Assembly (NCBI GenBank): GCA_009786085.1
Contig: WQTW01000006.1
Span: 1 to 36,249, forward strand
Direction: 5' to 3'
DNA length: 36,249 bases
Source of the DNA: Pseudomonadota bacterium
Lineage (GTDB): Bacteria; Pseudomonadota; Gammaproteobacteria; Burkholderiales; Casimicrobiaceae
Shown here: piece by piece, positions 9,146 through 36,249 of the stretch
Position numbering within the stretch: position 1 is the stretch's first letter
How the letters are laid out: each line of letters begins with the position of its first letter
Translations under genes and position numbers: made by a program
The notes under the pieces: model-generated
Seen by the model: the letters and a program-made list of their open reading frames with translations, nothing else
The model's database searches: none
Told to the model about the DNA's origin: nothing

Positions 9146-10810
9146 TCAGCAGTTATCATCCTGGCAAACAAACGCTCCACTATAGGACGGGATGGGGCCG
9201 TCTCGCCCATCGTCGTAGGCCGTCCATTTTCGAACCGTCTGTCTGGCGGTTCCTGCGTAGTATCCCGTGGCTGTGCCGTCACAATAATCCACACCTGTCA
9301 CGTCTATCCAGTTTTCGTAAGGAATCCTGTACCCGCCTTGCAAAAATGTTCCGTCTGCTTTTCTGCGAACCCAGTTCATGCTGTTTTTATCCGTACTCAG
9401 CGCCCGATTCCGATCCCAGGAGATGGTGTTGTTATCACAAACATTGATGACCCGCTGATCGCCATAGCCGACACCATAGAGCTTATCGTCTTCCGTCAAA
9501 TAAAAGACTGCTTCTTTCGTCGCTCCAACACTTTTCAGTTTCCCGGCCAGCGTCCGCTTCACCGGCACCGTGCCATACACTTGAAAATAAGCGCCGCCGC
9601 CGGGCGTCCCGCCCCAGGTATAGAGCGCCTGATCGTCGTCGTCGGGAACGGCCACACCGCCCGCGTAACGAACGATCAACCTCGTGGCCCTCGGACGCGC
9701 CGGGTTTGAACCGGGCCCCATGATCACCCGTGGCTCAAAAAAACGATGGGCGTCACCGGCGCCGACGCTGGCGCCCACGCCCGTATGCCGCGACAAGCCG
9801 GACACGACCACGCGCCCATCCGCCAGCAACACCCCTGTCCAGCCATAGCCGCCGTTAATGTAAATGATATCCTTGGCGTAGGCGTCGTACTGGGTCAAGC
9901 GCTCCGGCGTTCGGATGGTCACGTCGGTTCCTCTGTTGACCAGCGCGTAGCCGAAACTTCTTCCCCAACCCCACAAAGTATATTTGCCCGTTTTATCGAC
10001 GGACACAGCGTATTGCCCTTCATAAGCGCCGCCCACCAGAATGACTTGTTCTTTGTCGCCGTTTTTGTCAACGAAGTAGTGTGTGATATTCAACGGCACA
10101 GTCTTGTTTCCGCTGCTTCCCGTGGTTTCACCAAAAGAATTTCTTCCCCAGGTGTAAACGTCTCCATCATCCGTCAGGGCAATCGCGTTGTATTCACCGC
10201 CGTCGATGTACGCCACTTTTTTCTTGACCTGTGCGGTCGGCGTCTTGATGCCAAACGTCGGACAAGGCCGCGCCTGATAATGAGGCGCCCCGCTGACGGT
10301 GCCGGCGATAGTACCGTACTGGGTTGTTTCGTAGCCGGTGTTAACACAACCGGCTGTCCCGTAGAGACTGTCGCCCCAAGCCCACAATTCGCCTTCTTCG
10401 GTTAGCGCATACAAGGTGTGGGCTGTCGTGAATAATCGGATAACTTTCTGGCCAACAAGGTATTTGTTATAGGTCGAATTTTTGAAATCCTTGACGGTTT
10501 CAAATCGGGGGTGGTTTCGTCGGGCTTCCGCAGAATTGTGTTCATACCCTCTGGGGCCATCGTACCAGTTGGAATTTCCGCTGTGACCATTGTAGCGATA
10601 GCCCCACACGATAATGTCGCCGCCGGAGCCGTCGGGTTTTTTAGGCGTCGCCATCACCGCCGTCGAAATCAGACTGCCTACCCCCAACCCTTCCACCAGG
10701 CCCCTCAGCTTGGGCCCGGGCAAAACAGGATCGTTGGCATCCGCCCATGCCGCTCCGTTCAGAAAAACGACAAGCACCGAAAACGCCATTCCTAAAATTT
10801 GATACTTCAT
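9146..10810 (-). CDS. Secreted RCC1-repeat (beta-propeller) protein next to pilY1
   Basis: The 554-residue protein begins with a clear Sec signal peptide (hydrophobic FSVLVVFLNGAAWA, likely cleaved after ADA or WA). It contains at least six RCC1-type repeats, seen as recurring 'alt.dG.vytWG.n..G' blocks: LYALTEEGELWAWGDSLYG, NAIALTDDGDVYTWGRNSFG, YTLWGWGRSFG, GVLLADGRVVVSGLS, ALYTWGGTPGGG and FYLTEDDKLYGVGYGD. Such repeats form a seven-bladed propeller. The C-terminus has paired cysteines (VCDNN, DYCDG, FVCQDDNC) consistent with a periplasmic or surface location. AGGTG lies 5 bases before the ATG. It follows pilY1 on the same strand after about 295 bp of repeats, so it may be co-transcribed with the pilus cluster. 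Its role is unknown; a pilus-tip or adhesin accessory role is inference. Confidence 0.85.
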   Translation of the reverse strand: MKYQILGMAFSVLVVFLNGAAWADANDPVLPGPKLRGLVEGLGVGSLISTAVMATPKKPDGSGGDIIVWGYRYNGHSGNSNWYDGPRGYEHNSAEARRNHPRFETVKDFKNSTYNKYLVGQKVIRLFTTAHTLYALTEEGELWAWGDSLYGTAGCVNTGYETTQYGTIAGTVSGAPHYQARPCPTFGIKTPTAQVKKKVAYIDGGEYNAIALTDDGDVYTWGRNSFGETTGSSGNKTVPLNITHYFVDKNGDKEQVILVGGAYEGQYAVSVDKTGKYTLWGWGRSFGYALVNRGTDVTIRTPERLTQYDAYAKDIIYINGGYGWTGVLLADGRVVVSGLSRHTGVGASVGAGDAHRFFEPRVIMGPGSNPARPRATRLIVRYAGGVAVPDDDDQALYTWGGTPGGGAYFQVYGTVPVKRTLAGKLKSVGATKEAVFYLTEDDKLYGVGYGDQRVINVCDNNTISWDRNRALSTDKNSMNWVRRKADGTFLQGGYRIPYENWIDVTGVDYCDGTATGYYAGTARQTVRKWTAYDDGRDGPIPSYSGAFVCQDDNC

Positions 10811-10825
10811 GACCGCACCTCTATA

Positions 10826-10888
10826 TCCTGATTCCTGATTCCTGATTCCTGATTCCTGATTCCTGATTCCTGATTCCTGATTCCTGAT
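10826..10888. repeat. Heptanucleotide array, nine copies of TCCTGAT
   Basis: Nine perfect tandem copies of TCCTGAT lie just upstream of the RCC1-gene ribosome site (start codon at 10810). Copy-number change would alter leader length in 7-bp steps. It belongs to the same family as the arrays at 1, 20106 and 25621. Confidence 0.97.
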
Positions 10889-10889
10889 A

Positions 10890-11105
10890 ACCCCATCCCC
10901 ACCCCAGCCCTCCCCTTGAAGGGGAGGGTTTCAAATGCCCTTCTCCGCGCCTCCGCGTCTCCGCGTGAGCACAAAAAGTCGTCATTGCGAGCGAAGCGAA
11001 GCAATCCAGAAAATGCGCGCAACGAAAAAACGCTGGATTGCTTCGTCACTTCGTTCCTCGCAATGACGCCTTTCTGATTCCTGATACCTGACCTCTGACC
11101 TCTGA
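10890..11105. repeat. Palindrome CCCTCCCCTTGAAGGGGAGGG and 'GTCATTGCGAGCGAAGCG' inverted repeat
   Basis: The gap between pilY1 and the RCC1 gene (10811-11105) holds no gene. After the heptads comes the TCCCCTTGAAGGGGA palindrome with its CCCCATCCCCACCCCAGCC prefix (about 10891-10928). A large inverted repeat follows with arms 10980-11009 (CGTCATTGCGAGCGAAGCG...) and 11033-11068 (ending TCGCAATGACG), a widespread bacterial MITE/REP-like pattern. Degenerate heptads occur at 11075-11103. The structures could terminate or attenuate read-through from pilY1. Confidence 0.85.
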
Positions 11106-14100
11106 TCACCGACTGATAAAGCGAAGGCTGCTCCGCCTCGCTCCGCTACCTGCGGAACCCTCTCTACCGGAAAATTCGTCTCCGACAAAACCCGTTCCCT
11201 GATTCTGTTGCCGGTTTGCCAGCAGAAGCCTGAACACATGTTTCCCGTCTCTGCGCGTCAGCCCGACGTAGTGTGCCGACGCAAGTCCGCCCATATGGTT
11301 GACCAAATGGCCGGTGTTCAGAAGCGCGCCCGTATTCACCTGCCGCTCATAAAGCATCGCTTCAAACGGCGATGTCGCGCAGATGTCCAGCCCTGCCGTT
11401 CCGCTCGGAACATAACGGTTCGCAATATAGGCGGTTCGCTCAAGCAGCGAATCCGGGTTGGTAATCACCTGATACCCTTGATCAAAGAAATGAACCCACC
11501 CTTTTTTATCGGAAGAAACGTTTTCCAACCCATCACTGACATCTTTCAGATCGGAGAGATGATAGGGAAACGATGACGTGTCGGGTTCCGGTGCATCCCG
11601 CGTCCCATCTTTGAAGGCAAACATGCCCTGGATCGTTTCGGGATAACTTTTCCCGATCCCATCGTAAAGATCCGCTTCATCGTAAAAACGACCGGTTCCC
11701 GCCATGATCCAGCGCGCCTTCTCGCTATCGCTGTAGATCACCTCTATTCGCGGCTCGGTGTTGACCGGCAGTGGCGTATCCGCTTTATTGCGCAACGCCA
11801 TCAACTTGACCGCTTTCCATTCGTCGGGATTTTCCGACGTCAAATCAAAACGCCAGAAATTCCCCAACTGATCACCGCCATAGACCGCATCCGCAAGCTG
11901 GTTTTCGGAACTCTCTACAAAAGCCCGGATGTACGCCAACCCGCTGGGTTCCGCTTTCGTCCCGGCGTTTGTAATGACTTCATGAATTTTTTTTCCTGTC
12001 GCCAGATCGACAAAGAAAATGCGGCCTTTGCCATCTCCTTTTTTAGGCTGATCGCCGCCTTCTCCGTTGTTAAGACCGGACGGCAGAATCGCCACCCATC
12101 GCCCGCCCCAGGCTTTTGTTTTCACCATCAACGCGCGACCGTAGGCATATCCCATGTTGTCGTCGGTGAACGTCCATTGGAACAACGCCTCGCCCTGCCC
12201 CGCCGGCGTGTTGTCTCCCTCCGTGACATCGAGTGCGTAATACGACGTGCCGCCTTTGCCCATCCCGCCGATCAGCAGGGTTCTCCAGCGATCACCGCCG
12301 ATATCCACATCGATAACGCGGGGCGTGGCGTCCACATAGAAATAATGCGCCCAGCCTTCTTCTCTGGAACGCAACAGATTGACAATCCCTTTGTTCGCCG
12401 CGCTGCGGAAAAGCTCGGGAGGAATAAACGCCCAGCGCTCGTTTCCATCGTCGTCAAAAGCATGCAGCATGCCATCGTTTCCTGCCGCATAAATCATTCG
12501 TTTGCGGTCTTCGTGCGCTTTCTTGAAGTCACCGTAACCCGGATTTTTGAATTCGTTGTACAGAAAACCCGGTTTATCAACCACCGCCGGAGAAGCGTGA
12601 ACGAAATCGCCCAGAAGGCTGGGTCTCTTGCGGTATTTTCCTCCGACAAGACTTTCTTCCAGACGCCTGTCACCCCGAAGATAGTTAACGACCTCCTTCT
12701 GATCGTTCTGATTCGCCCCGAGCGTTAAAAGGTATTCGGGCGCCGCGCTGCTCAACGCGCTGAACGTAAAGGGGATGCCGCCGTTTCCTTTCGCCGTAAA
12801 AATCTTTCGCTCTGTATTCCAGGGCTCATTGTTCACGCCCATTTTTTCCGCCAGCTTCACCGCTGCGTCCCACACCATCGCGCCCGGCACAATTTCAGTC
12901 GCGTGATGGATTCTTCTCTTTTGAACCGTGCCGCCCCAGTTCGGCGTAAAGCTGGCGCTATAACCAAACATCTCGTTCTCGCGCCCCAGATCTTTCGATA
13001 TCGGAAGTCCCAGTTCCGCGAACGTTCCGCCGCGGCTGATCACGTCCAGTCCCGCCATTCCGCCGTGACCGGTGTCTATGGCTTTATCGAAATCATGCGG
13101 CGCAACGCCGGTCGTGAAGACGCCGAAACCGGAAACGGTCGCGTGCCACAAGTCGTCAATCGCTGTCGGTTCGTTTTTTCTGGGCGTCGGCCAATCAACA
13201 GCGCCACTGGCTATTCTGGCAAGCGTCTGTTTCGGATTTCTGGCCGACAGGGTTCCTTCGCCCGCATAGGTTAGCGCAAGCGTATTGAGGTGTTTCCATC
13301 CGGCCGGATCGTTCGCCGTTTGATCGACATCGAATGTTGTAAAGTCTTTGCGCAACTCATTCAGCCAGGCATAAAGCGAAATGTCGGAGAGCGTATCGCT
13401 CGCGGCTTGCGCGCCTTCCCTGATGGGGCGCGGCCAAAGTGTATTGTTAGCAAGATCAACCCCCAACACATTCGCCGCCCGAGGCGGCGTCGATACAACC
13501 TTCAAATCCTGATTCCCCACGCCTGAAAATGAATCGTCGTTCCATAAACCGTCGGTCAACGCCACCAGATAGTTCCGCTGGCAAGAATGAAGAATGAGAT
13601 TTTTGTCCGCATCGAATTTTGCGCGAACCCGGTGCATCGCGGTCTTGAGCGGCGTTCCCTTGTTGGCGATGGCGTTCACTTCGTGTTCGAGCAGCGCCTT
13701 GTAAATCCGGTATTTGCCCCCCACGGTGTCCGGGTCAAATTCTTTCACCTCGGTTAATGGTTCTATGGACGTATTGCCAGCAACGCTGTTGACCGTCGCA
13801 ACGCTCATTCTCAACCAGCGATCCGGCTCGATCCCCGCCAATGCGAAGGTCGCTACCGTGCGCGTCGCTGCCGTTCGGTTGCCGTAATACGCATACCAGT
13901 TGGCGTAATTTTCGAGTTCCTCCTCATACGTCCGGCTTTTCGTCTGCAACACTCCGTTTTCATCAACGACGGTGTGCTTGACAGGTTCTCCCGTACCTTT
14001 CGAATAATCCAGAACGACCAATTCAAAAGAAGGATACTGGGTGTGATCTTCCTTGTTGGGCGACGTGTATTTTCCGTTCGGAAAATAATAATACGGGTAT

Positions 14101-14990
14101 TTGTACACCGCTGTGCGATCGTCCTGACAATCCTGCGGAGATGCAGACCCCAAATACAAAGTACCCTCATAAAACGCCGATGGCGTGACCGGATTCCCGT
14201 CCGGCGTCGGCGAAACAGACTGGTAATAACGGCACCATTTCACGCTGGTTTTAAAGTAATGCATGGGCATGATGTCCGTCAGTTGCGCGAGTTGCGAAGC
14301 GCTTGCGCCATTCATGTACCTTAACTGCAATGAAAATCGCTGATCCGGAAAATAGGTGCGCTCTTGCGGAAAATCCTTCGTCACATCTCTCATGTTGATC
14401 GTGACGGGAACGCCCTGGGGTCGCGCGATCCCGCCAAAGCTCTCCGGCCAGCCGACCTTCGTCCAGCCGTTGCTCGCGTCTTTCATCGACGGAAAACTGA
14501 TGGTATTGCCGCTTTGGTTTTCAAAGACCGGCGGCAAATACGTCACCTCCGGGTGATAAGCCATCTTGTTGAAACCGGCGGCCATCAACGGCGGCGGCAA
14601 CAATTGCACCGCTTTTTCTCTGACCTCCGCTGGATTGGTGCTGCGGTAAGGATTGGGATAAGGGTACCCGCAAACATCGATGGTCTTGCATTGCCGATCG
14701 GACGGCGAACAAAGAAAAACACCGCCGACCGTTCCATCCGCACCACGCCAACACGCCCTCTCAACATCACCAATCCCTTCCGGCGCATGCGTCCAGGTCA
14801 TACTTCCTGAATCATCGGCAAGCAACAGCACGTTCGTCGGAACAAGGCTCTTGATATCCACAAACACCGGACTGTCCGCGATCTTGACCGGCGCGTTCGG
14901 ATTGGCTGAAAAGGAAGACGCCGAGAAGGTAGAAACAGCGAACATGAGCAACGCTGCCAGAAACGGGTTCTTGAAATGTATTCGTTTCAT
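11106..14990 (-). CDS. pilY1: Type IV pilus tip/assembly protein PilY1
   Basis: PilY1 is the large exported protein that, with minor pilins, primes pilus assembly and caps the tip, mediating adhesion and surface sensing. The 1294-residue product has a signal peptide (ending about SASSFSA), then VPTNVLLLADDSGSMTW, a MIDAS-like DxSGS of a von Willebrand A-type region. The second half is the PilC/PilY propeller domain with hallmarks AAGNDGMLHAFDDDGNERWAFIP, LLIGGMGKGGTSYYALDVT and AVYGGDQLGNFWRFDLT. The Gly/Ser/Arg-rich C-terminal end (GREGSAGSGARRSSLRF) overlaps repeat DNA and may be eroded. ATG 14990 was chosen because it begins the signal peptide and GGAA lies about 8 bases upstream; an upstream start at 15026 would spoil the signal. 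It follows pilX by 45 bp. Confidence 0.95.
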   Translation of the reverse strand: MKRIHFKNPFLAALLMFAVSTFSASSFSANPNAPVKIADSPVFVDIKSLVPTNVLLLADDSGSMTWTHAPEGIGDVERACWRGADGTVGGVFLCSPSDRQCKTIDVCGYPYPNPYRSTNPAEVREKAVQLLPPPLMAAGFNKMAYHPEVTYLPPVFENQSGNTISFPSMKDASNGWTKVGWPESFGGIARPQGVPVTINMRDVTKDFPQERTYFPDQRFSLQLRYMNGASASQLAQLTDIMPMHYFKTSVKWCRYYQSVSPTPDGNPVTPSAFYEGTLYLGSASPQDCQDDRTAVYKYPYYYFPNGKYTSPNKEDHTQYPSFELVVLDYSKGTGEPVKHTVVDENGVLQTKSRTYEEELENYANWYAYYGNRTAATRTVATFALAGIEPDRWLRMSVATVNSVAGNTSIEPLTEVKEFDPDTVGGKYRIYKALLEHEVNAIANKGTPLKTAMHRVRAKFDADKNLILHSCQRNYLVALTDGLWNDDSFSGVGNQDLKVVSTPPRAANVLGVDLANNTLWPRPIREGAQAASDTLSDISLYAWLNELRKDFTTFDVDQTANDPAGWKHLNTLALTYAGEGTLSARNPKQTLARIASGAVDWPTPRKNEPTAIDDLWHATVSGFGVFTTGVAPHDFDKAIDTGHGGMAGLDVISRGGTFAELGLPISKDLGRENEMFGYSASFTPNWGGTVQKRRIHHATEIVPGAMVWDAAVKLAEKMGVNNEPWNTERKIFTAKGNGGIPFTFSALSSAAPEYLLTLGANQNDQKEVVNYLRGDRRLEESLVGGKYRKRPSLLGDFVHASPAVVDKPGFLYNEFKNPGYGDFKKAHEDRKRMIYAAGNDGMLHAFDDDGNERWAFIPPELFRSAANKGIVNLLRSREEGWAHYFYVDATPRVIDVDIGGDRWRTLLIGGMGKGGTSYYALDVTEGDNTPAGQGEALFQWTFTDDNMGYAYGRALMVKTKAWGGRWVAILPSGLNNGEGGDQPKKGDGKGRIFFVDLATGKKIHEVITNAGTKAEPSGLAYIRAFVESSENQLADAVYGGDQLGNFWRFDLTSENPDEWKAVKLMALRNKADTPLPVNTEPRIEVIYSDSEKARWIMAGTGRFYDEADLYDGIGKSYPETIQGMFAFKDGTRDAPEPDTSSFPYHLSDLKDVSDGLENVSSDKKGWVHFFDQGYQVITNPDSLLERTAYIANRYVPSGTAGLDICATSPFEAMLYERQVNTGALLNTGHLVNHMGGLASAHYVGLTRRDGKHVFRLLLANRQQNQGTGFVGDEFSGREGSAGSGARRSSLRFISR

Positions 14991-15035
14991 CACAAATTCC
15001 TTACGGCTCTTCTGTCCTGAAAACACTGAGACCGC

Positions 15036-15599
15036 CTAGTTGATAAATGCCTGCGCAAAAACCGCCGTGTTCCTGACGCCGTCAACACGAATGGAAACGC
15101 GGACGATGGGTGAACCCGCCCCGCTGCCGGTTCTGTATTCGCCATCCGTATGCACGGGCACCGTCCCCATTCCTCCCCCGTTGCTCAACATGCAGTTGGC
15201 CGGCGTCAGTCCTGCGTTCGGATCGGCGCACATCCGTTCGGCCACAAACCGCACGCTCATATCGGAGACCTCCATCGTGCCCTCTCCGGGCTGCACGCCG
15301 TTTCGGAGCAGCGTCGCCGGAATGCCCTCGGGGCTGTCCGTGTTCCGCCAATGGTCGGAGAAATAAGCTGGGCGTGTTTCTGCGTTCAGCATGTCCTGCA
15401 CCACGTGTTCCACCGCCATGTTCGCAGGCGCTTCCGCCGCCTGACGAAAAGACAGGTTGTTGACCACCTGAATGGACGTATCGCTCGAACGCAACAGCGC
15501 CGTTGAAACAAGCAACATCGCCACCAGTATGAGCAGCGTCATGATCAGCACCATCCCTCGCTCCGAGCGGTACGACACGCTATAAGCACACCGATTCAT
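15036..15599 (-). CDS. pilX: Type IV pilus minor pilin-like protein PilX
   Basis: This 187-residue protein has the PilX N-terminal pattern: a basic leader, ERGMVLIMTLLILVAMLLVSTALLRSS as the hydrophobic alpha-1 helix, then a soluble part. PilX is a minor component of the priming complex with PilV, PilW, FimT/PilE and PilY1 in the inner membrane and pilus. The leader lacks a textbook FTLIE motif, as is usual for PilX. C130-region and CMLSN cysteines could form a disulfide. ATG 15599 has GGAG 8 bases upstream; an upstream TTG at 15620 overlaps the pilW stop. Order and tight spacing (17 bp after pilW) support an operon. Confidence 0.9.
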   Translation of the reverse strand: MNRCAYSVSYRSERGMVLIMTLLILVAMLLVSTALLRSSDTSIQVVNNLSFRQAAEAPANMAVEHVVQDMLNAETRPAYFSDHWRNTDSPEGIPATLLRNGVQPGEGTMEVSDMSVRFVAERMCADPNAGLTPANCMLSNGGGMGTVPVHTDGEYRTGSGAGSPIVRVSIRVDGVRNTAVFAQAFIN

Positions 15600-15616
15600 C
15601 GCTTCCACTCCCTCTC

Positions 15617-16705
15617 TCAATTCCAGATCGTGTTTTGCAGAGGAACCGTTGTTTCATATTTACGGTACCGCCATCCATACGGCTGATCGCTTTTCGACAC
15701 CACCAGAGGAATGTCCTGAGGAGCGCTGCATGTCCAGCCGCCGGGACAATCCACGAAAAAGGTTTCCGTAATATCAGGAGCCTCCGCCAATGCGATATCC
15801 GGCTCGGCCGCGCGCACGATCAACCCGAAGCGTATCGCTCTGATATCTCGCGCCGATATCGTTCCGCTCATGATCTGATCCAGCGTCGTCGCGTCGGGTG
15901 TTATCCACGCATCGGCGACGCCGCCCGAAGTCATCGCAACACCGTACTGCGCTTTGAAAGCGACAACGTTCGAGGCTACCGGAACCGTTCTCGTCACTTG
16001 CCAGTGGTTGTTGCCTGCCGCGGCGTCAACCTGCCATATTTCCATTTGCAGTGTTTCGTTTTCATCGACAAAGAAACGGCGTCTGACGACGTTCCCCATA
16101 TCGACCAGAGAATCCCCGGCGCTCATGCTTCCCAAAAACTGTCCTGCGCCGATCGTCACATCCACCCGTCCGCTGTCGTCGGGCGGCGTGACGGTTTGCG
16201 CCGAAAAAGCTGCGCAATGGGTTCCTGTCGCCGCAAGCAGAATGCTTCCATTCGCCAACCCAAGAGGCGCCGCCAGAGAAAAACGCTGCGGCGTATGAAT
16301 CTCGGTCACGGACATCGGCAAATCGGTGAAATTCCCCGTGCCGTAAAAGACAAAAAGATCATCCGACAAGCCACCATCGGCAGGAATGATCGCCGCAGGC
16401 AGCGGATACAAAGGAATAGGCGAACTCCCTGCATCGTTGTTGGGAAAAACCGAAACCGCCGTACACGCTTGAAAGCTTCCAAAATTGCTCATGACTCCCG
16501 CGCCGGCATTGCTCAACTCCTGACTGACCGCAAAAGTCGCGTAAAGCCCCGCCATCTGCGCTTCGTTGGTCGTTTCCGTCGCGCGGTAATTTCTCTCGAC
16601 GTTTTCAAAGATACGAAAACTGGCGTACATCGCCAGCAATCCGATGATCACACCAACCATCAGCTCAACAAGAGAAAAACCGTTTTGTTGGTTGCCCCGT
16701 CGCAT
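15617..16705 (-). CDS. pilW: Type IV pilus minor pilin PilW
   Basis: This 362-residue minor pilin has a prepilin-peptidase site: short basic leader MRRGNQQNG then FSLVELMVGVIIGLLAMYASF, with Phe+1 and Glu+5. The C-terminal soluble domain is long, as in the PilW family, with IRAIRFGLIVRA (typical 'vravRi.llvRs' motif) near the end. Cys residues in FFVDCPGGWTCSAP may pair. ATG 16705 is preceded by GGA; a GTG at 16720 with AAGGA upstream is an alternative adding five residues. It lies between pilV (66 bp upstream) and pilX (17 bp downstream). Confidence 0.92.
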   Translation of the reverse strand: MRRGNQQNGFSLVELMVGVIIGLLAMYASFRIFENVERNYRATETTNEAQMAGLYATFAVSQELSNAGAGVMSNFGSFQACTAVSVFPNNDAGSSPIPLYPLPAAIIPADGGLSDDLFVFYGTGNFTDLPMSVTEIHTPQRFSLAAPLGLANGSILLAATGTHCAAFSAQTVTPPDDSGRVDVTIGAGQFLGSMSAGDSLVDMGNVVRRRFFVDENETLQMEIWQVDAAAGNNHWQVTRTVPVASNVVAFKAQYGVAMTSGGVADAWITPDATTLDQIMSGTISARDIRAIRFGLIVRAAEPDIALAEAPDITETFFVDCPGGWTCSAPQDIPLVVSKSDQPYGWRYRKYETTVPLQNTIWN

Positions 16706-16771
16706 TTTTTTCCATCTCACTTTTTCTTATCCTTCTCCGGCGCTTGCGCATACGCGCTTGATGGTTCCGCT

Positions 16772-17236
16772 TCAGTTATTCCCGATAACGCTGGTCTGCG
16801 TGTATCGGCGGATTGCGTTTTCCCCCGGCGTCTGCCAGGTCACCGTGATTTCAACCAGCCTCGTTTCTCCCGGAAGGTTGGCGTCCGCCATGAAATGGAC
16901 GACAGGCGCACCCGCTCCCGGCAGTTTCTTCGTCAGTTCGTTTTCAAAAAGACCGAACTCATTTCCTCCTGACTCGAAGAGCGACGCCACCTGACCGGCG
17001 CCGCCCGACATCGCCGCAGGCGTCATCGCCTTGATCTTTCCCACGTACGCGTTCACCAGATGAATGGCCTCCGCCCGATACTGCACGTCCCCCGTATTTT
17101 TAAAAGACACCGCCTGCAATCCGGCCATCGCCAGCATCCCGCAGGAAAAAATCAGCACGGAGACCAACACTTCCACCAACGAGGAACCTTGCATCCTTCT
17201 AATCAGTTTCCAGGGTTTTTGTTTTCGACCTTCCAT
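16772..17236 (-). CDS. pilV: Type IV pilus minor pilin PilV
   Basis: This 154-residue minor pilin has a 17-residue basic leader ending RRMQG, then SSLVEVLVSVLIFSCGMLAMAGLQ. Glu+5 is kept, but position +1 is Ser rather than Phe/Met, which is seen in some PilV proteins. FxxGxLAMAGLQ is a PilV hallmark. The soluble domain ends with VEITVTWQTPGE, the conserved 'v.V.W..' strand of the family. It sits in the order fimT-pilV-pilW-pilX, with 79 bp to fimT upstream (a gap with a 'cgccttcgcgtgag' box). Confidence 0.92.
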   Translation of the reverse strand: MEGRKQKPWKLIRRMQGSSLVEVLVSVLIFSCGMLAMAGLQAVSFKNTGDVQYRAEAIHLVNAYVGKIKAMTPAAMSGGAGQVASLFESGGNEFGLFENELTKKLPGAGAPVVHFMADANLPGETRLVEITVTWQTPGENAIRRYTQTSVIGNN

Positions 17237-17315: not shown

Positions 17316-17888
17316 TCACTTGCACCCCTTCGGATCGGATGAAGGAAGCTGCGGATCGCACACCCGCACACCGCCGCCGCCATCCACCACAACACGAAAC
17401 GCCCTGCTCCCGGATCGCCCGCTGACATCAAACCGATTCGGCGGCGGGATCGCAGGCGACTCCGGAAACACCACCCTGCCCATGCCGTCAAACGTCACCG
17501 CTGCGCTCGCTAGCGTCGCGCCGCCCGACACCGCCGCGACAGAAACGGAAGACCAGTTGTTGTTCCCGCCAACGCCCCAATCAAACGTTTCCAATGGCGG
17601 CGTTATCGGGGTCAACGTCGCCATGTCGAGTTGCGATACCGTCCATCCCGCTCCTGACCACACGAACCGGGTTTGGATATTCGTCTGCACCGCCTGCCAT
17701 CGCGCTTTTTGCATTCCATAAAAAAGCGACTCGGCAACGTTTCTGACTTTGCGATCCTCCAGATACTGACCGATGGACGGCGCAGCCAACAGTAACGACA
17801 ACGCCAGGACAGCCAGCACCGTCATCAATTCAACCAGTGTCAACCCTTCAGAGTACCGGCGCGTTTTCACGACTTCGCTCATGTCCAT
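17316..17888 (-). CDS. fimT: FimT/GspH-type minor pilin
   Basis: This 190-residue pseudopilin-like protein has leader MDMSEVVKTRRYSEG, then LTLVELMTVLAVLALSLLLAAPS (Glu+5, Leu+1). The GspH/FimT soluble region includes YLEDRKVRNVAESLFYGMQKARWQAVQ, the usual 'nrl...l..al..AR.eAi.r' motif. VTFDGMGRV and FRVVVDGGGGVRVCDP at the C-terminus match FimT ('i.f...G', 'rrivvs..Grvr.c'). In some bacteria FimT also binds DNA during natural transformation. It lies 29 bp after the pilE-like gene. The ATG at 17888 is used; an in-frame ATG two codons later is possible. Confidence 0.88.
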   Translation of the reverse strand: MDMSEVVKTRRYSEGLTLVELMTVLAVLALSLLLAAPSIGQYLEDRKVRNVAESLFYGMQKARWQAVQTNIQTRFVWSGAGWTVSQLDMATLTPITPPLETFDWGVGGNNNWSSVSVAAVSGGATLASAAVTFDGMGRVVFPESPAIPPPNRFDVSGRSGSRAFRVVVDGGGGVRVCDPQLPSSDPKGCK

Positions 17889-17917: not shown

Positions 17918-18361
17918 CTAACAACTCCCATCCCTTTTCAACACCCAGCAAGATAAAGGCGTCGTGACGCCCCATCCCGCTCCGACGCCCGTCGTCTGCT
18001 TGAGGCCAGCTTGATCTATCGTGTAAGTGAAGCCTGCCATGCTGCCGATACCGCTCGCCTGCAAGGTGTACGTTGTAGGCGTTTGCGTACCGGTGCACGC
18101 CACGTTGAAATATTTTGTCGCCACCGGATAACGCGTACATGCGTGCGCCCCTCCCGGCGCGACGTGATACGCACGGTTATCCGCGAGAAACTTTTCCATC
18201 GCAATCCGCTCGTTCGACAACAACGCCAACCCCTCGGGGATTCGCCCGCGAATGATGTAGTCCCTGTAGCTCGGATAAGCGAGCGTCGCAAGGATTCCGA
18301 TAATGGCGACAACCGCCATCACCTCAATCAGCGTAAATCCTCGCTCTCGCCCATTTTTCAT
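17918..18361 (-). CDS. Type IV pilin PilE/ComP-like
   Basis: This 147-residue type IVa pilin-like protein has leader MKNGRERG then [32 protein letters not shown], with Phe+1 and Glu+5, followed by [23 protein letters not shown]. This pattern belongs to the minor pilin PilE/ComP group, whose neisserial member binds DNA during uptake. The soluble domain has two cysteines near the C-terminus ([12 protein letters not shown]) forming the D-region loop, plus CTRY and VACTG. The ATG at 18361 has a G-rich stretch 6 bases upstream; longer frames back to 18508 would break the prepilin leader. It is the first gene of the pilus cluster. Whether it binds DNA or only primes pili cannot be decided here. Confidence 0.88.
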
Positions 18362-18532
18362 TTGATGCCCCCATCGTCGAAACACTTTTTTTACGCGGCC
18401 TGTGCCGACCGCTTCAAAATCACTTGACATACCTTTGGACACCTCCCATTGGCATAGGTTCCTGAAAATCTTTTCCCAGCAATTTATGCTTCCCAATGCA
18501 CGAAGCACCGAAGAGCCGTTCCTTTAGTCCGT

Positions 18533-20105: not shown

Positions 20106-20154
20106 CTGACTTCTGACTTCTGACTTCTGACTTCTGACTTCTGATCTCTGACCT
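20106..20154. repeat. Heptanucleotide array CTGACTT upstream of yhbY
   Basis: Five perfect copies of CTGACTT are followed by variants CTGATCT and CTGACCT. The array ends 30 bp before the yhbY ATG, within the presumptive promoter/leader region. Confidence 0.95.
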
Positions 20155-20184
20155 CTACCCCCCTGAATCAGGTAAACTTACCGG

Positions 20185-21186
20185 ATGTTGACCTTGACCC
20201 CCACCGAACGCCGCGCCTTGCGCGCTCAGGCGCACACGCTTACCCCCGTTGTCATGATCGGCCAGCACGGGCTGACGCCCGCTGTGCTGCGCGAGATCGA
20301 CAATGCCCTGAACACCCATGAACTCATCAAAGTGCGCATTTTCAACGATGACCGCGCCGAACGCGAAGCCTTGCAACTCGCCGTTTGTCATCAACTGGCC
20401 TGTGCGCCGGTACAACACTTGGGCAAATTGATCGTTCTCTGGCGTCCGGCGCCGCCGAAGAAGGAAGCAGCGCCAAAACCGGCCAAGCGTCCCGCGAAAA
20501 AAGCCGCCTCAAAAACCGCGAAAAAGGCAGCGCTCCCCGGCGCGATCAGCCGTCATGGGCAGGCGATCAAACCGCTGTCGGCTCGGCAAGCCAGAGAGCA
20601 GGCGCAACAGCCGGAATGGCAACCCGCACGGCAACCGCGCCCATCCGGCAGGAAAACTTTTTCCAACGCTCATTCTGACAGACCCAGCGACGAAGCGCCC
20701 ACCAACCGCCGCCGTTCACCGCAGCCTGCGGGTCGCGGTTCACGCGGTTCCCTTGCGACGGGCGGTTCCTTCGGCGCCCATAAAACGGGCGGGAAATCGC
20801 CGTTCCCGCAGGAAAAACCTTCGGCGCGGCAACCGCGTCCATCCGGCAGGAAAACTTTTTCCGACGCTCATTCTGACAGACCCAGCGACGAAGCACCCAC
20901 CAACCGCCGCCGTTCACCGCAGCCTGCGGGTCGTGGTTCACGCGGTTCCCTTGCGACGGGCAGTTCCTTCGGCGCCCCTAAAGCGGGCGGAAAACCGCCG
21001 TTCTCGCAGACAAAATCATTAACAAAACCATCGGCGCGGCAACCGCGCGGCGCTTCCGGCGTATCGCATTCGGCCAGCCGACAACCAACCGGTCGGCAGT
21101 CAACCGCTCGGCAACCCACCAGCCAGCCGTCAACCCGACCGCCATCAACCCACCGGCGGCGGCTCGGCGGTCGCGGAAAGACATGA
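20185..21186 (+). CDS. yhbY: YhbY-family (CRM domain) RNA-binding protein with long basic repeat tail
   Basis: Residues 1-95 form a typical YhbY/CRM domain, associated with the pre-50S ribosomal subunit: LTPTERRALRAQAHTLTPVV, the GxxG RNA-binding loop as IGQHGLT, then IDNALNTHELIKVRI and LGKLIVLWRP. Normal YhbY ends there at about 97 residues. This one continues to 333 residues with a low-complexity Lys/Arg/Ser/Pro/Gln tail (KKEAAPKPAKRPAKKAASKTAKK, then two 66-residue near-identical repeats and an Arg/Gln/Ser/Thr-rich end). The tail is strongly basic and probably disordered; similar but shorter basic tails occur in some betaproteobacterial homologues. It is separated from rimO by a terminator and a heptad array. 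The ATG at 20185 has no obvious Shine-Dalgarno. Confidence 0.88.
   Translation: MLTLTPTERRALRAQAHTLTPVVMIGQHGLTPAVLREIDNALNTHELIKVRIFNDDRAEREALQLAVCHQLACAPVQHLGKLIVLWRPAPPKKEAAPKPAKRPAKKAASKTAKKAALPGAISRHGQAIKPLSARQAREQAQQPEWQPARQPRPSGRKTFSNAHSDRPSDEAPTNRRRSPQPAGRGSRGSLATGGSFGAHKTGGKSPFPQEKPSARQPRPSGRKTFSDAHSDRPSDEAPTNRRRSPQPAGRGSRGSLATGSSFGAPKAGGKPPFSQTKSLTKPSARQPRGASGVSHSASRQPTGRQSTARQPTSQPSTRPPSTHRRRLGGRGKT
20631..21026 (+). repeat. 198-bp tandem duplication inside yhbY tail
   Basis: The segment starting GCAACCGCG at 20631 recurs at 20829 with the same 198-bp period (66 codons) and only scattered substitutions. A third, short start of the unit (about 24 bp, TCGGCGCGGCAACCGCG) appears near 21035. 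The period is a multiple of three, so the frame is kept. Each unit encodes RQPRPSGRKTFS, a DRPSDEAPTNRRRSPQP segment and a Gly/Ser-rich end. Confidence 0.92.
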
Positions 21187-25589: not shown

Positions 25590-25703
25590 CATCCCCGCGA
25601 AAGCAGGAATGACGAAGTTCTGATCCCTGATCCCTGATCCCTGATCCCTGATCCCTGATCCCTGATCCCTGCCCCCTGATGCCTGATGCCTGATGCCTGA
25701 TGG
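25590..25703. repeat. dRS3-like hairpin and heptanucleotide array upstream of paaK
   Basis: A hairpin CGTCATCCCCGCGAAAGCAGGAATGACG (25590-25617) resembles a single fused end of the NIME-like module. The array follows: seven TGATCCC copies (25621-25669), one TGCCCCC, three TGATGCC copies (25677-25697) and a partial unit. It ends 46 bp before the paaK ATG; TGGTATTAT (25701-25709) at its edge resembles an extended -10. Confidence 0.93.

Positions 25704-35894: not shown

Positions 35895-36249
<355 letters not shown>

Follow-up and report, generated by a model that had tools for sequence, protein, structure and literature searches.

Does a secreted RCC1-repeat protein whose gene directly follows pilY1 belong to the type IV pilus, or does it merely share an operon with pilus genes? 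Type IVa pili have PilY1 as their tip and priming protein, and the stretch of DNA analysed here (36,249 nt, hereafter the window), which is one entire contig (G000:C6) of an assembly of 2.25 Mb in 178 contigs (97% complete), carries such a gene, which we call rcc1. Comparison of the window with related genomes, all of them draft assemblies, indicates that the protein always accompanies one branch of PilY1 in one Burkholderiales-like genus, and argues from sequence that it is likely to be a new pilus-tip partner.

The last gene of a minor-pilin operon

The minor-pilin/pilY1 operon is complete (18508-11106, minus strand), with the gene order pilE, fimT, pilV, pilW, pilX and pilY1, and rcc1 is its last gene, after a gap of 295 nt (Table 1). 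rcc1 is an open reading frame for 554 aa on the minus strand (9146-10810) that begins with ATG, with pilY1 and the minor pilin genes upstream on the same strand. As the earlier note had described, it follows pilY1 and encodes both a signal peptide and C-terminal cysteines. PilB/PilT-type ATPases are also encoded in the window's genome. (Note that elsewhere in the window, a gene whose YhbY-like product has a tail rich in Arg, Ser and Pro contains a 198-bp tandem duplication, 94% alike, at 20629-21009, and the contig ends in 30 consecutive C, 36220-36249, probably an assembly or sequencing artefact.)

Table 1. Features of the rcc1 locus in the window.
Feature	Positions	Strand	Description
RCC1-repeat protein gene (rcc1)	9146..10810	-	554 aa, secreted; signal peptide 1-23, seven repeats ~42-456, C-terminal Cys module ~450-554
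C-terminal module, residues 450-554	9149..9463	-	only in pilY1-linked RCC1 proteins
pilY1-rcc1 gap	10811..11105	-	heptad array, GC-rich palindrome, long REP-like hairpin with TTTTT tail
Heptad TCCTGAT, 9 perfect copies	10826..10888	.	end ~15 nt upstream of rcc1 start codon
pilY1, 1306 aa	11106..15026	-	PF05567 105 bits; VWA-type DDSGS motif at residue 71; C-terminal PilY1 propeller
pilX-like minor pilin	15036..15620	-	position and N-terminal hydrophobic stretch; no Pfam match
pilW minor pilin	15617..16720	-	PF16074, PF07963
pilV-like minor pilin	16772..17236	-	PF07963
fimT/fimU (GspH-like) minor pilin	17316..17888	-	PF07963; PF12019 19.6 bits, slightly under cut-off 21
pilE/ComP-type minor pilin	17918..18508	-	PF07963, PF16732

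The RCC1 repeats were recognised by the Pfam model RCC1_2 (PF13540), which scored 43.1 bits against a cut-off of 22, and by RCC1 (PF00415), which scored 21.7 bits and so stands exactly at its cut-off of 21.7; the whole-domain model WD40_RLD reached 87 bits, under its cut-off of 150. Sequence matches in the PDB were to HERC2, UVR8 and RCC1. Seven RCC1-type repeats could be placed by reading (at about residues 42-78, 119-154, 197-230, 253-289, 312-346, 374-408 and 423-456), and a WxxG-type motif is present six times, compared with a mean of 0.44 and a maximum of 4 in 500 shuffles. An AlphaFold model, built from only two sequences (the window's and that of one relative), had a pLDDT of 29, too low to be informative about the fold or surface. 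No other RCC1 protein was detected in the window's genome.

The signal peptide, MKYQILGMAFSVLVVFLNGAAWA/D (ending AWA/D), is of the Sec type by eye, as all signal peptides here were judged, and its type is conserved in all relatives; the protein did not match the class III (PilD) N-terminal motif, PF07963. Nor is a pilin domain fused to the repeats, which follow the signal peptide and start at about residue 42. The PilY1/PilC propeller model (PF05567) found no match in the 554-aa protein, whereas the neighbouring product of 11106-15026 does match it. Cysteines sit only at residues 155, 183, 458, 510, 549 and 554, and thus the haem motif CxxCH is absent from the protein; those at 155, 183, 458 and 510 are invariant in an alignment of seven members.

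Following the repeats is a cysteine-containing stretch of about 100 residues without a Pfam match, which has the pattern C-G-...-R-W-T-YDDGRDG-P (residues 450-554). Among the loci compared, this module was matched only in pilus-linked RCC1 proteins and was absent from the other RCC1 proteins met. A model of the module built without the diverged member from genome G004 retrieved that member (E 4.9e-6) and no further protein among the compared loci, and in 369 genomes of the class no copy was found except the window's own. Other RCC1 proteins of the genus carry other partners, for example in VWA7-VWA-Ig-RCC1 chains. Two genomes of the genus encode proteins of about 1200 aa (L052 10039-13638 and L053 9809-13465, both on the minus strand) that combine VWA7_N, VWA, galactose-binding-like, Ig and RCC1 domains; this VWA-plus-propeller layout recalls PilY1, but the families are different.

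Association with one clade of PilY1

Among 60 related genomes, full-length homologues of the RCC1 protein were found only within the genus, in G003, G009, G008, G002 and G007 and, in diverged form, in G004. Had the gene lain mostly away from pilus clusters, the pilus link that the earlier note had proposed would have been refuted; instead, in 7/7 full-length members, the window's included, rcc1 comes immediately after pilY1, in the same orientation and at the end of the cluster. The clusters of the window, G003 and G002 are flanked by rimO and the grpE-dnaK region and the others lie in different neighbourhoods, and the pilY1-rcc1 pair has therefore stayed together despite a change of surroundings. 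Most member genomes hold further pilin/pilY1 clusters that lack an RCC1 gene (for example on G000:C29 and C80). Across the genus (L064-L082), genomes of only about 2 Mb each contain several complete minor-pilin/pilY1 clusters, an unusually large set of alternative tips for genomes so small.

A phylogeny of 25 PilY1 proteins has a branch (SH-aLRT 99) that separates the seven encoded beside an RCC1 gene from the remaining 18, which have no such neighbour; the RCC1 label requires a single change on the tree, a value as low as that being reached in 0/500 shuffles. The RCC1 gene of a further species, G010, cannot be judged because its pilY1 of the RCC1-positive clade is broken at a contig end. That pilY1 (L077 86-799, on G010:C65) has internal stops at the contig edge, and the operon has decayed in this one species. 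(Note that G001, G005 and G006 are incomplete assemblies.)

Outside the genus, no orthologue was found in an order sample of 399 genomes in which the top candidates were scored. In the class sample, RCC1_2 proteins occurred in 44/369 genomes, 20 of which also had PilY1; among the matches listed for those 20, close linkage of the two families was not found, although rare linked cases may exist beyond them, and two RCC1/PilY1 pairs shared a contig, at distances of about 90 kb and 350 kb.

The association extends to sequence divergence. Controlled for species distance by the single gene RimO, which is a thin proxy, and over no more than seven taxa, the pairwise distances of RCC1 and PilY1 were correlated with a partial r of 0.91 (exact Mantel p 0.001; at least 0.71 on leaving out any one taxon), compared with 0.40 for RCC1 and PilW (p 0.12) and 0.23 for RCC1 and PilX (p 0.23). 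The correlation may also come from joint transfer of the adjacent genes. The RCC1 proteins of G008 and G009 (0.59 and 0.65) lie closer to the window's than would be expected from species distance, the values for G007 and G002, which are closer species, being 0.52-0.56; the 3' end of the operon may therefore have been exchanged.

Thus synteny, clade-restricted co-occurrence and distance covariation together give good support to the earlier proposal of an extracytoplasmic partner of PilY1, whereas the alternative tip adhesin proposed with it is something that we can only infer.

The region between pilY1 and rcc1

The heptad array and the two palindromes that had been noticed upstream of rcc1 are real: TCCTGAT is repeated 9.0 times with 100% matches, and the palindromes lie at 10972-11076 and at about 10907-10928, the shorter being GC-rich and 21 nt long. 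Folded as RNA, the whole gap has a z of -4.3, and the REP-like hairpin at 10972-11076, with its TTTTT tail, would stand on the pilY1-to-rcc1 transcript, where it could be an attenuator in the window's strain. Neither a promoter-like site between the two genes nor a known RNA element was found in the region.

We considered whether rcc1 might encode a phase-variable surface protein, with slippage of heptads beside the ribosome-binding site toggling the gene independently of pilY1. That nine perfect heptads stop about 15 nt short of the rcc1 start, and that a strong T-tailed hairpin separates the two genes, would suit such a switch. In the six relatives, however, only 51-84 nt separate the pilY1 stop from the rcc1 start, with no heptads and no hairpins. 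At this site the array occurs in the window's genome alone, where similar heptads stand at many sites of the assembly (7 arrays in 65 kb, compared with almost none in the relatives' loci) and where the gap DNA itself has more than 100 matches elsewhere, as a dispersed repeat; the failure to find a promoter-like site also speaks against independent toggling. We regard phase variation of this kind as very improbable, and the earlier idea that the heptads provide for variable expression found no support in the comparison. A regulatory or phase-variable gap as a general feature of the locus was dropped on the same grounds.

Because the gap DNA is repeated genome-wide and is missing from the relatives' gaps, the gap is a landing place for dispersed repeats. 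The DNA was acquired in the window's lineage and its repeats are not part of the conserved system, although co-transcription of pilY1 and rcc1 may be weaker in the window's strain. Arrays related to CTGATxC were seen in the window at 1-113, 10826-10888, 20106-20156 and 25620-25701, and also at L064 14475-14577 and L065 7412-7482 and 7899-7952; these scattered arrays represent a strain-level repeat expansion.

A candidate second propeller at the pilus tip

We consider the RCC1 protein to be an accessory dedicated to PilY1, most likely a second propeller and co-adhesin carried at the tip, and rate this reading, with its supposed contact, tip location and ligand, as evenly poised. Its basis is the genes and their order, the export signal by inspection, the RCC1 repeats, the one-to-one association with a single PilY1 clade, and distances that covary with those of PilY1, though not with those of the minor pilins tested. 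More tentatively, and with a probability that we put a little short of even, the tip would bear two propellers, the separate RCC1 propeller being an obligate second subunit, a co-adhesin, of a genus-specific PilY1 lineage, such that the pair co-evolves while the minor pilins diverge independently. In this scheme the protein would serve one of the several minor-pilin/PilY1 tip modules of the genus. It would be exported by Sec and fold as a seven-bladed RCC1 propeller closed by the C-terminal module with its putative disulphides. Since it has no pilin N-terminus, it could not polymerise alone and must bind another subunit; it may dock on PilY1 in the periplasm and would most likely leave with the priming complex for the pilus tip. 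Its loops could then offer a second ligand-binding surface, contacting a surface or a partner cell. The missing pilin N-terminus weighs against this scheme, as does the need for some 58 kDa of cargo, next to a PilY1 longer than 1300 aa, to traverse the secretin.

The main rival of a place in the tip complex is a periplasmic stabiliser or assembly factor that binds PilY1 transiently, aids its folding or holds its propeller before incorporation, and stays behind, as does TfcP. The type of operon position and the type I signal peptide are as in TfcP, and the covariation with PilY1 and not with the tested pilins suits this role too. The RCC1-positive PilY1 proteins also lack the canonical calcium loop DxNxDGxxD before Y(G/A)GD, which two other paralogues keep; however, this loop was also lost in the sister clade, which is RCC1-negative, and therefore the loss cannot decide in favour of a stabiliser and is ruled out as the reason for the RCC1 gene. 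Because the protein also has neither CxxCH nor any sequence relation to TfcP, we think a stabiliser rather unlikely, if less so than a protein that merely shares the operon, a eukaryotic-like hitchhiker of the cell surface or the extracellular space that has no physical connection with pili. Other RCC1 proteins of the genus, including the VWA7-VWA-Ig-RCC1 giants, do sit away from pilus genes, and the 20 class-sample genomes with both families gave no linkage among the matches listed. Against such a bystander stand the strict retention of rcc1 with one PilY1 clade across differing neighbourhoods, the private C-terminal module, and the specificity of the distance covariation for PilY1, and we judge it quite improbable.

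Returning to a tip-borne partner of PilY1, the nearest published parallel is PilX2 of the T4P-2 of TM7x (Nanosynbacter lyticus), a minor pilin with a seven-bladed RCC1 propeller that is a proposed adhesin and is required for normal T4P-2 host binding (4.6% compared with 10.6% of hosts bound) (PMC12206443). Like the protein described here, PilX2 has RCC1 repeats (in seven blades, compared with seven repeats by reading here), is encoded among minor pilin genes and is without a predicted PilD site (PMC12206443). However, comparing the two by description and not by sequence, PilX2 is a single protein with a pilin lollipop N-terminus, whereas the RCC1 protein is separate, Sec-secreted and placed beside a full PilY1; that the precedent is a pilin fusion and ours a separate polypeptide counts against the tip model. 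TfcP, from the cluster_1 pilY1 operon of Myxococcus xanthus, is alike in that a minor-pilin/pilY1 cluster encodes it as an additional exported protein that is not a pilin, is clade-restricted and is tied to one PilY1 paralogue; it stabilises PilY1.1 and does not become part of the pilus (PMC8833165). It is a small cytochrome c, whereas the RCC1 protein would be a 58-kDa RCC1 propeller.

With PilY1/PilC (PF05567) the protein shares export, a propeller (predicted here), a type IV pilus setting and the operon itself, but it belongs to a different repeat family, has neither a PF05567 match nor a VWA domain, and has PilY1 itself as its neighbour. RCC1, UVR8, HERC2, the bacterial BLIP-II and Legionella RCC1 effectors share the RCC1 repeats (seven here, by reading), to which our protein adds a Sec signal, a pilus operon context, large loops and the private C-terminal Cys module. 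PilY1 sits on the minor pilins at the priming complex and the pilus tip (PMC7541494, PMC13190605), and variation in tip specificity has so far been credited mostly to its N-terminal domains (PMC13190605). If the tip reading is true, new tip specificities would also arise through a separate RCC1 propeller tied to one PilY1 clade, which, together with PilX2 of TM7x, would suggest that the pilus tips of distant phyla took up RCC1 propellers on more than one occasion.
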